DNA of 35,183 nucleotides from NCBI GenBank assembly GCA_011371305.1, contig DRQW01000198.1, positions 1-35,183 of the forward strand. The letters run 5' to 3'. The position numbers were made by a program, and so were the translations under genes. Positions 3,594-16,027 of the stretch are shown here, piece after piece. This DNA comes from Anaerolineae bacterium. GTDB lineage: Bacteria > Chloroflexota > Anaerolineae > J102. Under the pieces are notes generated by a model, which worked only from the letters and a program-made list of their open reading frames with translations, was not told where the DNA came from and did not search any database. The stretch's first letter is position 1, and each line of letters opens with the position of its first letter.

Positions 3594-6500
3594 TTACCAG
3601 GCGTCGATGATCATCCGCACAATATCCGCACTGCGGTTGCTTATGTACACTCGGTTCGTAGCAGGATTCACGGCCACATCGCCGGGATCACCATCCATGG
3701 CCAGGGTAGCCAGGGGTAGCAGGGTGGCGCCATCAAAGACGCTGAGGCTATTATCCGCGCTGTTGGAGACGAACACATGGCCCGTGGTGGGATTGGCCGC
3801 GAGGCCCACGCCACCTTGCGGCCCGGCTTCACCAGCCATGCGAGGCGCACGCTTGCCGAAGTCATATCCGGGCTTCACCTCGAAGGTGATGAGCACATTG
3901 GGATTCGGGCCTTCTTGCGTGAAGAGGTTAGGAAGCGGGAGATAAATGGGCTGATCCGCGAACAACGCCAAGGGATTGTCCGGATCGATCATCACATAAA
4001 GCTGTTTGAGGGTGGGATCGAAGGCCATGGCGAAGGTTTCGCCACCGGGGAATAGCCTGGTAACTTCCGCATCCGTCGCACCATTGAAGACCCGGATGGT
4101 ATGATCATCCCGGGTGCTGACATAGACCTGATTATCAGGCACATTCACCACAACATCAAACGCGCCCGGCAGATCGGGGATCGTTTTAAGAATCGCGGAA
4201 GTCGCACCATCGAGGACAGCCAGCTGGTGGGCGTTATGCAGGGTCACATACACCTTATTCGTGTTGGGATTCACCGCGACCTGGGCGGGCATACTGCCCG
4301 GCGGGAAGTTGACCGTGGCGATAACCGCGTTGGTATTGATGTCAATCACCGAGAGGGTATCGTCCGCGGTATTGGCTACATACGCCCGCTTGGTGGTCGA
4401 GTTCACAGCCACGCCATAGGGTTCCTGCCCCACCGGGACCTGAGCCAGGATCGTGTTGTCGCCGCCATTCACCACATAGAGACGATGGGTCGTACGGCTG
4501 GCGATGTAGAGACGGTTGGAAATTGGATCCACATCGATGGTCTTGGGATGGGGCACCGGGATACGGGGCGCCGGGGGCGTAGGCGTGGCCGTAGGCGTGG
4601 GTGTAGGCGTGGGCGTGATGGTGGGTGTGGGCGTGTTGGTTGGGGTCGGGGTCGGCGTGGGCGTAGGCGTGGGAGGAGGCCAATCACGCCAGACGATGGG
4701 CAGATAGATCATGCACCGATAGCCGAAATCGAGGTAGGTTGTCTGTGCATAAAGGACGTTATCGATCACAGGATTTGCGGTGGTCGCGAAACACCCGTTG
4801 GCCAACGCCAGGGTCGTGGTATAGGTCCCGATGGCGAGATCCTCCCACAAGATCTCGCCCGCGGCGTCAGTGACGCCCGCGCCCGATTCACCAAACTCAT
4901 TGATGTAGGTCACAGTGAACCCGGGCTGGTCCGGCTCGCCCGGCCCTTGGAGGCCGTCACCATCGATATCCCAGAACACATGAGGCGAAAGCGCTCCCAG
5001 GCGTCGGTTGGCAAAGGTCACTGTGCTGGTCATGGCATATTGGATGGTGGTATGCATGACCTGGCCGGATACCGCGACGGCATGAGGAGGCAGGGTTTCG
5101 GTCACCGTATAAACGCCGACGGGCCGACGGAGGAACAGACATTGACCGCTGGCATCGGTGGTACAGGTGTCCACATCGCCAAACTGGTTGGTCACTGTCA
5201 TGGCGACACCAGACCAGGGAGGTTCACCCGCATCCCGCACGCCATTGCCATTGATATCTTCGAATTTGAGGATTTCCAAATCGCCCAGGCGTCGATTGGG
5301 AATGACCACCCGGCCCATGCCGCTGTGGGGTACGGTGGTAGTGAACGTTGTGCCGGCCACGCCCTCGGCATAGGGTGGGAGGGTTTCGGTGACGGTATAA
5401 ACACCGCGCGGGAGATCCAGCAACATGCATTCGCCATCTGCATCGGTGGTGCAGGTGTCCACATCCCCGTACGCGTTGGTGATGGTCATAGCCACGCCCG
5501 ACCAGGGTGGCTCGCCCGCATCGCGTACTCCATTCCCATTGACATCTTCAAACTTGAAGATTTCCAGAAATCCGAGCTTGCGATTGGCAAAGGTCACCGT
5601 CACCGTCTGAAGGGGCTGGACCATCGTAGTATAGGTGTCATGGCTTGTGGGGATGCTGTTGGGAGGCAGGATTTCGGTGACGGTGTACAACCCCTCGGGC
5701 ACAAGCTCAAACAGGCATTGGCCGTTTTGATCGGTGGTGCAGCTATCGGTATCGCCGTATTCATTCTCATAAACCACGTTGACGCCGGCCCAGGCCTCTT
5801 CACCCGGGTCCTGCACGCCGTTGCCGTTGATGTCTTCGAATTTGAACACAGCCAGGTTGCCCAAACCCTGGTTCCCAAAGAGGACCGTACTCGTCACATT
5901 CGAAGTTACGACCACGGTTTGGACGCCAGGCGTTGTCAACCGATAGTTGATCGGCTCTGTTTCGGTAATCGTCCAGGTTCCCACACACACGCCAGGCCAT
6001 TGCACCGTGCCATCCGCGGCAGAAACACCCGTGCGGGTCATGCCACAGGGGGCGCTGGCGTCAAAACGGAAGCCAGCCAGCGGGTCTTCGCCCGGATCGC
6101 GCACGCCATTGCCATTCTTATCATGAAACTTGAGTACCTCGATGCCACCGGGGATGACTGCATTCCCAAACAGCACGGTGGTGGTCATGTTCTCCTCAAC
6201 CGTAACTGATTGGGTGTAGGGGGTCGTGGGGATGGTGCCATTGGGCACCACCTCGATCACCACATAACCGCTGGCCGCGCCCAACTGATGATAAAGGATT
6301 TCCCCTGTGCTGTTGGTTTGGGTAAGCAAGATGGTATCGGTGAAAGGTGGCGGGAATTGTAATCGGAAAATCACATCGGGCACGGGCGGCTCGCCGGGGT
6401 CCCTTTGTCCGTTCAGGTTGAGATCGTTGTATTTAAGGATGCGCAGCGCGCCTGTTTTGTCGCTTACGAAAAAGGTCACATACGCCCCGATCTCCTCACC

Positions 6501-6911
6501 CGATCCAGAGGAATAATCCACCTGGGCGATGTATTTCTCGAAAGGCACGTGGGGAGGGACGGTGTAGGTCACAGGTAAAGTATAAATGTACGTAAAGGGC
6601 CCCAATAACTCAGGCTGGGCGGTATAAGTCTCCTGAACAATGACATCGTTATCTTGATTGACAATGCTAAACACTGTCTCCATGGGCGGCGTTTGCGTAT
6701 CCGGCGTGATGATCCAAGTAATATATTCCTGTTCACCAGGCCGGATAAACACGGCCGGACCGGGCTTCACAGTCATCGTAATGACAGCATTCGGTTTGGC
6801 TAAGCTCACATACCCGATGCCAAACAATATTGCCATCATTCCGAACGCCAAGAGCACGCGTCCAAACGTCTGAAAGGGAGCGAATTTGCTTAACTTTGGG
6901 GGAATCATCAC
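3594..6911 (-). CDS. Large secreted or anchored surface protein: about six SdrD-B-like repeats, Pro/Thr linker, YVTN-type beta-propeller
   Basis: N-terminal hydrophobic segment; repeats of the form LEIFKFEDVNGNGVRDAGEPPWSGV...TCTTDADGEC...GVYTVTETLPP; (PT)n linker; C-terminal YVVNGGDNTILAQVPVGQEPYGVAVN / VYISNRSADIV YVTN-like blades. Confidence 0.85.
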   Translation of the reverse strand: MMIPPKLSKFAPFQTFGRVLLAFGMMAILFGIGYVSLAKPNAVITMTVKPGPAVFIRPGEQEYITWIITPDTQTPPMETVFSIVNQDNDVIVQETYTAQPELLGPFTYIYTLPVTYTVPPHVPFEKYIAQVDYSSGSGEEIGAYVTFFVSDKTGALRILKYNDLNLNGQRDPGEPPVPDVIFRLQFPPPFTDTILLTQTNSTGEILYHQLGAASGYVVIEVVPNGTIPTTPYTQSVTVEENMTTTVLFGNAVIPGGIEVLKFHDKNGNGVRDPGEDPLAGFRFDASAPCGMTRTGVSAADGTVQWPGVCVGTWTITETEPINYRLTTPGVQTVVVTSNVTSTVLFGNQGLGNLAVFKFEDINGNGVQDPGEEAWAGVNVVYENEYGDTDSCTTDQNGQCLFELVPEGLYTVTEILPPNSIPTSHDTYTTMVQPLQTVTVTFANRKLGFLEIFKFEDVNGNGVRDAGEPPWSGVAMTITNAYGDVDTCTTDADGECMLLDLPRGVYTVTETLPPYAEGVAGTTFTTTVPHSGMGRVVIPNRRLGDLEILKFEDINGNGVRDAGEPPWSGVAMTVTNQFGDVDTCTTDASGQCLFLRRPVGVYTVTETLPPHAVAVSGQVMHTTIQYAMTSTVTFANRRLGALSPHVFWDIDGDGLQGPGEPDQPGFTVTYINEFGESGAGVTDAAGEILWEDLAIGTYTTTLALANGCFATTANPVIDNVLYAQTTYLDFGYRCMIYLPIVWRDWPPPTPTPTPTPTPTNTPTPTITPTPTPTPTATPTPPAPRIPVPHPKTIDVDPISNRLYIASRTTHRLYVVNGGDNTILAQVPVGQEPYGVAVNSTTKRAYVANTADDTLSVIDINTNAVIATVNFPPGSMPAQVAVNPNTNKVYVTLHNAHQLAVLDGATSAILKTIPDLPGAFDVVVNVPDNQVYVSTRDDHTIRVFNGATDAEVTRLFPGGETFAMAFDPTLKQLYVMIDPDNPLALFADQPIYLPLPNLFTQEGPNPNVLITFEVKPGYDFGKRAPRMAGEAGPQGGVGLAANPTTGHVFVSNSADNSLSVFDGATLLPLATLAMDGDPGDVAVNPATNRVYISNRSADIVRMIIDAW
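4570..4680 (-). repeat. Low-complexity GGCGTAGGCGTGGG repeats encoding the Pro/Thr linker
   Basis: Hexamer-like GGCGTG/GGCGTA repetition; translates to PTPTPTPTNTPTPT. Confidence 0.8.
4940..6450 (-). repeat. Coding tandem repeats (about 290-bp period, six degenerate copies) encoding SdrD-B-like modules
   Basis: Recurring 'gcatcccgcacgccattgccattgatatcttcgaattt...'-type segments near 4.95, 5.23, 5.52, 5.81, 6.10 and 6.39 kb. Confidence 0.75.
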
Positions 6912-11940: not shown

Positions 11941-13518
11941 TCAACTCCCTATCAAAGCTTCAATGGTTTCCAGGGTATCCTCCAGGGCCAGGATACGCTC
12001 GTGCAGGGAAAAGATGTCGTTTTTTAGATCATAAGGAACATACTCGCCCGCGTCTTCCAACGCATTCCGCTCCGCTTCCTTTTGGGCGACTTGCTCGCGC
12101 AACCGTTCCAGCTCCCGACATGCCTCGGATGCACGCCACTGCAACACGTCGGCCATCTCATCCAGTTCCCTCTCCAGTTTATCACGATTTCGTTCGTATC
12201 GACGCAGACGCCATGCCTCTGGGCCAGTGGCATCCGCGGCCAGACCATCGAGCTGAAGAAGAATCCGTTGGAGCCGGCTATCCAGCAGATGGTAGCGGTC
12301 GAGGAGAGTCGTGGTGTCGGCATTACGATAACGATAAAGGAGATGACGGGGAGGTTCAGGCGCTTCGGGGCATGGATGCCTGGTCGGGGCTTTTTCGATT
12401 GCGGACGGATCAAAGATGACGCCATCCTTGGACCGGAGATAAAGGACCGGGGTAGCGAATCCACGATCATCGGGGAAAGCCAGGAGACAGGCATTGCGGG
12501 CCAGGGTAACCGCAAAATCCACATGCCCAGCCCACTTCCCTGTGCAAAGCCGTCGGTAGAAGGTTTCGGCAAACTGAATGGCCACATCGTCACGGATGGG
12601 GTACTGCATGGCCACCACCGCTGGAATGCCCGCCCGCAACAAAGCCGGGACCACGCCCCAAAAGCCCTCGCCCTCAGGCCGTTCACTCACCTCTCCCACC
12701 TCGCACCCATTGAGCACCACCAGCCGCAGGCTCTTGTGATTGCCCAGCAGGCTTTGCAATTCGATTTCCGAAATCCAATCCTCATCCTCCCCCGATTGAA
12801 GAGGCCCCCCGGCCGCATTCAACCGCAAACGCCCGTGCATCGTTCCATCCGCATCTTCCTCAAAGACGCCATGCCCGATGAAATGCAAAATGGCATAACG
12901 ATCCTCCGCAAGCGCGTCATCCAGGGCCTGCCGCGTGACGCGCCCCTTGAGTACCCGGTAGGGTATCTGAGCTGCATCCAGGGCCTGGGTGATCACGCGC
13001 TCCTCCCGGGCGGTGTCCAGGTTCCCCACCTCGGGGATGACGATGAGCGTGGGGGGCAAACCATCTAACTGCAAGCTCTCGATGTTGCCATATTCCAGGT
13101 TGAGCAACTGGCGCGTCAACAGGGTGTCGATTTGCGTGGCCAGGAAAACGTCCTGATGGTGCATGAATTCCCAGGGCAGGGTGGCCAGTTCCATGGCCTC
13201 ATCGTCGATGTTCAGACGTAGCCGCAGGCTCGCGCCTTCTTCCCCCTTCACCCGTTGGGAGAACAGCGCGAAGAACAGATCTTGCACCTGGCCTTGGAAC
13301 AACGCCCGAAAGAGTGTATTTCCTATTTCCCGAAAGAGTGCTCGCGAAGTGGTAAAAGGCTCTTCCCGGACCTGCGTCAATTTCTCTTGAAATGCCGAGG
13401 CGAAGAGCGCGTGGGAATCCAGATGGGCTTCGGCCAGGCCGCTCTCGGGCGCCTGGGCTGTGACGCGAAATCCATCGGAGGCTTTCGTAATGCGGATGTC
13501 GAGGTCGATAACCATCAT
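11941..13518 (-). CDS. CHAT-domain protein (caspase-like) with C-terminal coiled coil
   Basis: YAILHFIGHGVF (His motif) and LRLVVLNGCEVGE (Cys motif), followed by GIPAVVAMQYPIRDDVAIQFAETFYRRL; Glu/Arg-rich C-terminus. Start uncertain (13515/13518; ORF to 13569). Confidence 0.85.
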   Translation of the reverse strand: MMVIDLDIRITKASDGFRVTAQAPESGLAEAHLDSHALFASAFQEKLTQVREEPFTTSRALFREIGNTLFRALFQGQVQDLFFALFSQRVKGEEGASLRLRLNIDDEAMELATLPWEFMHHQDVFLATQIDTLLTRQLLNLEYGNIESLQLDGLPPTLIVIPEVGNLDTAREERVITQALDAAQIPYRVLKGRVTRQALDDALAEDRYAILHFIGHGVFEEDADGTMHGRLRLNAAGGPLQSGEDEDWISEIELQSLLGNHKSLRLVVLNGCEVGEVSERPEGEGFWGVVPALLRAGIPAVVAMQYPIRDDVAIQFAETFYRRLCTGKWAGHVDFAVTLARNACLLAFPDDRGFATPVLYLRSKDGVIFDPSAIEKAPTRHPCPEAPEPPRHLLYRYRNADTTTLLDRYHLLDSRLQRILLQLDGLAADATGPEAWRLRRYERNRDKLERELDEMADVLQWRASEACRELERLREQVAQKEAERNALEDAGEYVPYDLKNDIFSLHERILALEDTLETIEALIGS

Positions 13519-13600
13519 ATCGCGTGGACAAAAAGACAGAGGAAGATGCGTTCGGTGGTTGATGAACAAGAGGAAATTTGCTCTTCAGAATGGGTGAAGC

Positions 13601-13606
13601 TAGAAT
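13601..13606 (+). promoter_or_regulatory. -10-like box TAGAAT 7 nt from ATG 13614
   Basis: TAGAAT ggccggg ATG. Confidence 0.4.
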
Positions 13607-13613
13607 GGCCGGG

Positions 13614-14420
13614 ATGAAAGTCTACCGCGATCATCTTAGCGTTACCACATGGATCGTCCTGGCTTCGCTGACGATGGGCCTGTTGCTCCAATGGCCCGAA
13701 CGGGTTTACACCCTCTGGGCCTTTGGTTCCCCCATCGATTTGCGGATATCGGGGGCGTTTGTGGCCGGGCTCGTGGCGTTGGCTGCGACTTGGGCGGGCA
13801 CGGAAGCGGTTTTACGCACCCATCCGCGTGCGGCGCGGCTCAGACACACCTATCGCTTCTGGGGCTTGCCTTCGGCCATGACCCTGACCGGCGCGACCTT
13901 GCTCCCTACCATCCAGAATCCTAGCCTGTGGTTGCTGATCCTCGCCGCGGTGGGGACAGGGCTGGCGGTGAGCATCGCGGGGGAATATCATACCGTGGAT
14001 CGAGAAGAGGCCGCATACACCAAGGCCCGCTGGTTACTGAACATCCTGGCCTACCTGTTGGCTGGGATTACATTTGTGCTTATCTATCTTGCCCGCAGTC
14101 GGTCATTGGTTTCGGCCACACTTATCGCCCTGGTGGCGGGCATGTTAGCGATGGACCTATTGCGAGATAGTAGCAGAGGCACAGGTGAGGTTATGCTCTC
14201 CAGCGGACTGATCGCGTTCCTTTTGGCGCAAATCACGGTCCTCCTCAACTACTGGCCGTTCCCCACCCTGCGGGTGGCACTTCTGTTACTGATGGCCTTT
14301 TATCTGATGGTGGGGCTTGTTCAGACGCATTTGCGCGGCCATCTGACTTTCAGGCGGGCACTGGAATATTTAACGATCTCGGGGGTGGTGGTAGCGATCA
14401 TCGTGCTCTTTCCAAAATGA
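13614..14420 (+). CDS. Polytopic membrane protein, hypothetical
   Basis: Several hydrophobic segments; start taken at MKVYRDH because TAGAAT lies 7 nt upstream. ORF extends to 13578 if an earlier ATG is used. Confidence 0.7.
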   Translation: MKVYRDHLSVTTWIVLASLTMGLLLQWPERVYTLWAFGSPIDLRISGAFVAGLVALAATWAGTEAVLRTHPRAARLRHTYRFWGLPSAMTLTGATLLPTIQNPSLWLLILAAVGTGLAVSIAGEYHTVDREEAAYTKARWLLNILAYLLAGITFVLIYLARSRSLVSATLIALVAGMLAMDLLRDSSRGTGEVMLSSGLIAFLLAQITVLLNYWPFPTLRVALLLLMAFYLMVGLVQTHLRGHLTFRRALEYLTISGVVVAIIVLFPK

Positions 14421-14462
14421 GAAAAAAATCGACAAATTTTCAAAATTTCCTGATTTTACCCG

Positions 14463-14698
14463 TAACCTTTCAGCCACATCTTCGTCTTGAGGTTATAGCC
14501 AGGATAAATGAAGGCAAGGACGGGAAGGGGGAACCTGTTCTTGCTGGATATCCTGGCAACCGCCGCAAGCGCGACTTGCGGCCGACATGAGCACCACACG
14601 AGATTTGTCGGGGGACGGATCTCAAGCAATGCGCTTGTGTGCTCAGTCGCTTCTCTGGCAGGGACGTCGTTAAATCGGCGTCCCTGCTTTTTTGTTTT
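14463..14698 (+). ncRNA. Structured RNA candidate with intrinsic terminator, family not recognised
   Basis: Stems read by eye: 14498-14506/14549-14557 (GCCAGGATA/TATCCTGGC), 14514-14524/14534-14544 (11 bp with two G-U), 14562-14569/14575-14582 (GCCGCAAG/CTTGCGGC), 14583-14594/14639-14649 closing an inner multibranch (GAGAT/ATCTC and AAGC/GCTT), then the terminator at 14658-14698. 5' boundary uncertain. Confidence 0.6.
14658..14698 (+). terminator. Rho-independent terminator
   Basis: GCAGGGACGTCG-TTAAAT-CGGCGTCCCTGC followed by TTTTTTGTTTTT. Confidence 0.85.
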
Positions 14699-14714
14699 TC
14701 AAGACGTCGAGGGG

Positions 14715-15650
14715 TTACTTGCCGACCGCGGCCCGAAGGAAAAAGAACAAATTGGCCGGGCGTTCGGCCAGTCGCCGCATGAAATAGGGGTACCACGATT
14801 CGCCATAGGGGACATACACGCGCATGCGATGGCCTGCGGCTACCAAACGGCGCAATTCATCCCGACGGATGCCGTACAAAAACTGGATCTCCCAAGTATT
14901 GGGATCCACTTCTTGTTCCGCGGCATAGGCGATGACCTGATTGTAAACCACATCATCGTGAGAGCCCAACGCCAGCCGCGCCCCTTTCGCGCGGGCCTCG
15001 GGCGTAAGCATGGTTTTGGACAGGGCAATCAGCTCTTGCTGAATCTTTTCCCGTTTTTGCCATGCGATCTCGGGCGGTTCATCATAGGCACCTTTCACCA
15101 GCCGCAAGTCCGCAATACCTTCATCGATCAATGTTTCCAGGTCCGCGCGGGTGCGATGCAAATACGCCTGCAGCACGGTGCCCACATTATCGAACTCCTG
15201 GCGCAATTCCCGATAGATACGCAAGGTCGTATCCACCAGGGCAGATTCTTCCATATCGATACGCACAAACCGTTGCTTCTCCCGAGCAAGCGCCACAATC
15301 TCTCGCACATTCTCATAACAAAAGGTTTCGTCGATATGCACGCCCATGGCAGATAACTTCAACGAAACACCGCTCTTCAACCCCAAGTCCCCAATGGCTT
15401 GTAATACCGTTTTGTATTCCTCCACACTGGCCCGAGCCAATTCACGATCGGTCACATGCTCCCCCAGATAATCCAAGGTCACCAGTACCCCAGCATCATT
15501 CATCTTTTGGATGACCTTCAATGCGTCCTCCCGTTTTTCCCCTGCCACAAAGCGTCGTGCCATCCGCCGAGCGGGAGGGAAATCCACCGTCATCCGTTGC
15601 ATGGTGCCGCTGTGCGAGAGGGCAATAAGTAGATGCCGTAACATCTTCAT
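14715..15650 (-). CDS. Proline dehydrogenase family protein
   Basis: LVTLDYLGEHVTD, VSLKLSAMGVHID, FVRIDMEESALVDTTL, LQAYLHRTRADLE, LRLVKGAYDEPPEIAW, ALGSHDD, EIQFLYGIR, RVYVPYGESWYPYFMRRLAERPAN. Start 15644 or 15650. Confidence 0.9.
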   Translation of the reverse strand: MKMLRHLLIALSHSGTMQRMTVDFPPARRMARRFVAGEKREDALKVIQKMNDAGVLVTLDYLGEHVTDRELARASVEEYKTVLQAIGDLGLKSGVSLKLSAMGVHIDETFCYENVREIVALAREKQRFVRIDMEESALVDTTLRIYRELRQEFDNVGTVLQAYLHRTRADLETLIDEGIADLRLVKGAYDEPPEIAWQKREKIQQELIALSKTMLTPEARAKGARLALGSHDDVVYNQVIAYAAEQEVDPNTWEIQFLYGIRRDELRRLVAAGHRMRVYVPYGESWYPYFMRRLAERPANLFFFLRAAVGK

Positions 15651-15741
15651 TTCTCCAAGGTTTGTGAGCAATGGGAACTACCAACAAGGTCGGATGAACT
15701 GGCGTTTCCAGCATGCACGCAATCACAAGACAGGATACGCC

Positions 15742-15998: not shown

Positions 15999-16027
15999 TT
16001 GCGCAATCGCAGTGCGTGAAGTATAAT
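15999..16027 (+). promoter_or_regulatory. Sigma70-type promoter of mraZ/dcw operon
   Basis: TTGCGC - 17 nt - TATAAT (16022-16027). Confidence 0.75.

Follow-up and report, generated by a model that had tools for sequence, protein, structure and literature searches.

What is encoded in the gap between the convergent stops at 14420 (+ strand) and 14715 (- strand) of contig DRQW01000198.1, from an uncultured Chloroflexota (Anaerolineae bacterium, assembly GCA_011371305.1)? The window analyzed here is the whole 35,183-nt stretch of this contig. An earlier note, made from its letters, had proposed that the gap holds a stable small RNA (sRNA), roughly 200-240 nt long, with a strong terminator at its end. 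We find both stops at these positions, and the gap almost certainly encodes a structured RNA gene. Promoter position, terminator, fold and covariation place this gene, of ~205 nt, at about 14493-14697 on the + strand. The RNA matches no catalogued family and is previously undescribed. Its sigma-type promoter and twin GGGGGA loops point to a probable regulatory role in the stress response.

Structure of the RNA

The region 14463-14698 has a minimum free energy of -111.1 kcal/mol compared with -76.6 +/- 4.6 kcal/mol for dinucleotide shuffles (z -7.46), and 0 of 200 shuffles fold as low. The core without its terminator gives a folding z of -7.65, again with none of 200 shuffles as good. All of the complementary arms named in the earlier note lie where it placed them. 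Helix P1 (GCCAGG...CCTGGC, 14498-14506 with 14549-14557; all coordinates of RNA and promoter parts are on the + strand) encloses helix P2 (14513-14524 with 14534-14545), where seven of nine modelled pairs show double-sided changes. The tip of P2 is loop A, the 9-nt AAGGGGGAA at 14525-14533, which is near-invariant and unpaired with a probability of ~1 in the ensemble of the window. P3 (14562-14569 with 14575-14582) shows compensatory changes within the genus and has another sequence in other genera. P4 (14583-14594 with 14639-14649), supported by fold and covariation, closes a branch formed by P4a (14600-14609 with 14614-14623), whose stems diverge completely between genera. P4a carries loop B with the motif GGGGGA (14610-14615), of which 14610-14613 are also unpaired in the ensemble. 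The AAGC/GCTT hairpin (P4b) of the earlier note is poorly supported in relatives. The RNA ends in an intrinsic terminator with a 13-bp stem and a U tract (14657-14699), which was predicted at 14657-14688 as the only terminator on the + strand of 14300-14800, and most relatives have a counterpart.

Covariation supports P1, P2, P3, P4 and P4a. In an alignment of nine sequences, 44 pairs were 91.3% paired and 18 of them had double-sided changes, versus 8.9 in shuffles, with a covariation score of 0.323 compared with 0.193 for shuffled and 0.07-0.09 for slid alignments. For P1 and P2, 14 sequences across genera gave a score of 0.548, versus 0.300 shuffled and at most 0.21 slid; P1 covaries in this set of 14. 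The P3 and P4 stems are kept within the genus, and other genera have stems of different sequence in their place. Of 17 loci, 15 have AAGGGGGAA as loop A and the other two have CAGGGGGAA, and 16 keep GGGGGA at the apex of P4a. The conserved parts of the RNA are therefore its loops, while its stems change. The single exception for GGGGGA is the G009 locus (L108), a natural variant with domain 1 only, in which a short U tract follows P1 directly and there is no second GGGGGA loop; the second domain was apparently lost.

The RNA of the window does contain a 62-codon frame that could be taken for a small protein. However, relatives keep neither a reading frame nor a start within the RNA, and the helices covary, leaving a coding function with next to no probability.

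Distribution among genomes

Rfam 15 returned no match at gathering score for the whole window and none up to an E value of 10 for 14380-14760, in line with the earlier view that the RNA is not tmRNA, RNase P RNA, signal recognition particle RNA or 6S RNA. By DNA search, this gap was recovered from seven of eight other genomes within the genus, along with a fragment of it from a second genus. We then used two covariance models, R1 of the RNA core and R2 of the promoter with P1 and P2. Of 396 genomes of the class, 14 contained the RNA according to R1, and all 14 belong to the window's family; R1 scores partly reflect its own source sequences, but the model had not been trained on the cross-genus matches (L028-L032). 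R2 detected the RNA in 17 genomes out of 20 from the order, among them 9 of 9 high-quality genomes, and always as a single copy. Among 400 genomes drawn from the phylum, R2 did not find it outside the order. A specific P1/P2 pattern scanned against 84,980 species genomes matched only six uncultured Chloroflexota, which are named Caldilineae, Caldilineales, Anaerolineae, Chloroflexi or Chloroflexota, and the pattern matched no viral contig.

Putative promoter and regulon

The 5′ arm TAACCT, which had been paired with AGGTTA as an RNA stem, belongs instead to a putative promoter. TAAC (14463-14466) is part of the -35 element and the AGGTTA partner is not conserved, so the RNA is predicted to start near 14493, about 30 nt later than first placed. 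The -35 element is CCGTAAC (14460-14466), conserved across 17 loci and found before the gene of an extracytoplasmic function (ECF) sigma factor as well. The -10 element, CGTC (14483-14486), lies 16 nt past the -35 and is CGTC in 16 of 17 loci and AGTC in one. The predicted RNA start is ~7 nt past the -10, +/- 3 nt. The 16-nt spacer, variable in sequence, is fixed in length across the 17 loci, with G018 fitting best at 17 nt. In a few genera the -35 of the RNA differs (CCGTATC, CCGTGTC, ACGCGAC), and the -10 hardly varies. ECF promoters have an AAC-type -35 and a CGTC-type -10. Spacers of 16 or 17 nt are used in promoter models for Streptomyces sigma-E (PMC6767563). By its sequence, CCGTAAC-N16-CGTC has a well-supported ECF-type promoter architecture. 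Two further conserved stretches were observed. In the genus of the window, the spacer in the promoter of the ECF sigma gene ends in a conserved CCCCCGTC (L063-L070), after which canonical start codons are absent apart from a TTG right at the -10; translation of the sigma factor possibly starts at a CTG, GTG or TTG after GGAGG. In other genera a second conserved element, CTTAAACTTTnCGCGCG, lies just upstream of the RNA's -35 (L027-L032), where the window's genus has an A/T-rich block instead.

Nine genomes of the genus contain 62 CCGTAAC-N15..17-CGTC sites. The spacer is 16 nt in 32 of 32 sites that are followed by YTTT, compared with 12 of the 30 others. The total count of the loose pattern is not above a reversed control, so the signal is carried by the subset with YTTT and a 16-nt spacer. 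Sites of this subset precede a conserved ECF sigma gene (Sigma70_r2/r4; at G000:C195:14933-15505 in the window's genome), which is followed by a predicted membrane open reading frame (ORF) with a DUF5667 match; this protein may be anti-sigma-like, by position only, and a literature search on DUF5667 anti-sigma factors found nothing relevant. The motif also precedes genes for TetR regulators and S8 subtilases, and one for a secreted protein that matches CBM_4_9 weakly. In most other genera a related form of the promoter precedes the sigma gene. Shared promoter motifs thus make the RNA a predicted member of an identifiable ECF sigma-factor regulon, and it is very probably under ECF control. It had been described as an orphan, which holds for the missing Rfam family but not for its apparent regulon.

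The same promoter bears on whether the RNA is a structured 3′ untranslated region (UTR), a processing product or the terminator region of its upstream neighbour, a DUF5656 membrane gene (13578-14420, + strand). A similar co-directional membrane ORF, DUF5656-like, lies at the left in most relatives across genera, as such an origin would predict. However, a conserved promoter separates the gene from the RNA, the fold is much more elaborate than that of a terminator, and no left ORF of the DUF5656 type was found close by in G015 (L032). We therefore regard a 3′ UTR origin as very unlikely.

Proposed mode of action and candidate targets

We lean towards a model in which the RNA is a trans-acting, noncoding arm of an ECF envelope-stress regulon whose GGGGGA loops act on C-rich mRNA sites. 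When the membrane anti-sigma protein lets go of the ECF factor, RNA polymerase would initiate at CCGTAAC-N16-CGTC, and the product would be a compact RNA of ~205 nt that stops at its own terminator. Two separate hairpins would then expose the identical GGGGGA motif and pair with (U)UCCCCC in mRNAs, at sites that are most likely close to translation starts, altering translation or stability of the targets. The uncertain part of this model is the mechanistic detail beyond trans-acting regulation by an ECF-induced RNA, and we judge antisense action through the G loops to be an even call. Both Hfq (0 of 20 genomes) and CsrA (0 of 20 above the PF02599 cut-off) were missing from the order, so the RNA would have to work unaided or with some other protein.

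Evidence for targets is thin, and the strongest lead is the mRNA of the ECF factor, regulation of which would provide negative feedback. We found TCCCCC in the early ECF mRNA of seven of eight parsed genomes of other genera and TTCCCCC in five (the G012 and G015 orthologues are examples), compared with a background in the first 60 nt of genes of ~2.4% for TCCCCC and 0-0.2% for TTCCCCC. In most genomes these sites differ slightly in position and codon register. In the ECF leaders of other genera (L072, L075-L079), UUCCCCC or UCCCCC lies ~28-32 nt past the GTC of the -10. The early site is thus a possible feedback target of the GGGGGA loops.

Several observations weigh against pairing of the loops with C-rich mRNAs. 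In most species loop B forms a tetraloop, GGGG, which limits exposure of the seed. The orthologous early ECF sites are not independent of one another, and a Pro-Pro codon pair may contribute partly to the C5 tract. In the genus of the window the ECF transcript has no C5 site, and CCCCC there lies within the promoter spacer, upstream of the -10. Across whole genomes, TCCCCC was also not enriched upstream of genes, with 27 sites versus 14 for the reverse complement in G007 (weak) and 9 versus 14 in G015 (absent). A target in the 5′ UTR of PspA, suggested by one genome, was rejected when the site was not conserved in two readable orthologues.

Other candidates were tried and set aside. A search for TTCCCCC near ATG gave too many chance matches, and counts of TTCCCCCTT in the genus were about equal to the control. 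Pairing of loop B with the 3′ arm of the terminator, checked by eye as a route to antitermination, was abandoned, since it does not hold in some relatives.

The missing C5 enrichment near starts would also be expected if the loops served as a protein-binding decoy, with an unknown RNA-binding protein that recognizes GGGGGA being titrated by the ECF-driven RNA, by the logic of CsrB/RsmZ or 6S RNA. Two identical short loop motifs on covarying stems are the layout of protein-titrating RNAs. However, there are only two sites and no candidate protein is known. GGGGGA differs from the CsrA consensus, and CsrA is itself missing from the 20 genomes, so we consider a decoy rather unlikely. Returning to regulation by an ECF-induced RNA, we tentatively propose, at somewhat less than even confidence, an order-specific, stress-induced RNA class whose paired GGGGGA loops, a mirror image of the widespread C-rich-loop sRNAs, regulate C-tract mRNAs, that of its own sigma factor among them. 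It would do so independently of Hfq and CsrA, or an unknown G5A-binding protein would mediate the effect.

Gene neighbourhood

The RNA lies just before the dcw cell-division cluster, among a CHAT-domain gene (11941-13569, - strand), the DUF5656 gene and a proline dehydrogenase gene (14715-15671, - strand), its convergent downstream neighbour. The cluster begins with an mraZ-like gene (start at 16016, + strand), and both were read from translations. This is the next gene on the + strand, ~1.3 kb past the RNA. A cis-acting leader, riboswitch or attenuator could have the same compact multi-domain structure followed by a terminator. However, the next gene is convergent, no sense gene lies downstream, the gene downstream of the RNA varies between genera and Rfam has no match, making a leader highly improbable; the earlier note, from the lack of a following sense gene, had judged it not obviously a riboswitch leader. 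Its further proposal of a stable sRNA gains from conservation, covariation and a predicted promoter of its own. In other genera (L029, L031) a DinB-like ORF, identified by eye, either separates the RNA from the proline dehydrogenase gene or replaces the latter, so the right neighbour is not constant and the left, DUF5656-like one mostly is. Elsewhere in the window (3594-6911, - strand), a gene adjoining an ATP-binding cassette (ABC) transporter encodes a large secreted protein in which, as judged by eye, SdrD/B-like stretches recur and the C-terminal part resembles a beta-propeller.

Comparison with known regulatory RNAs

A literature search for regulatory RNAs of Chloroflexota found no relevant papers, and this phylum has almost no known stress-response regulatory RNAs. 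If the proposed model is true, then Chloroflexota too couple an envelope-stress sigma factor to a noncoding arm, and the RNA is a case where the fixed functional parts are G-rich, not C-rich, loops. Since the loops are invariant, the mechanism is directly testable by mutation.

In kind, the RNA appears to resemble both the sigma-E sRNAs and the sRNAs with homopolymer loops. RybB and MicA of enterobacteria and FoxI and FoxJ of Fusobacterium nucleatum likewise have an ECF-type promoter shared with the sigma gene and, as predicted for the RNA here, are free-standing with a terminator and belong to a regulon of envelope and secreted proteins (PMC1804206, PMC11005410). Fusobacterium lacks Hfq, and overexpressed FoxI or FoxJ lowers rpoE (PMC11005410). 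However, the RNA described here has no sequence or Rfam relation to the sigma-E sRNAs, is ~205 nt long with several domains, occurs in Chloroflexota, and has twin G-rich hairpin loops where they have 5′-end or C-rich seeds. CsrB/RsmZ-type RNAs also have repeated GGA-containing hairpin loops, but here there are only two motifs, strictly GGGGGA, in an order whose genomes have no CsrA. The actinobacterial 6C RNA (mycobacterial B11) and Xanthomonas sX13 share with our RNA repeated homopolymer loop tracts and chaperone independence (PMC3771888, PMC12395582), the latter as predicted here. Their structure is different, there is no Rfam match to 6C, and the loops here, AAGGGGGAA and GGGGGA, are G-rich, so that targets would be C-rich sites rather than G-rich ribosome-binding sites. 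Thus sX13, the 6C-type B11 and FoxI/FoxJ all have C-rich loops or stretches, and in the Chloroflexota RNA this sign is reversed.
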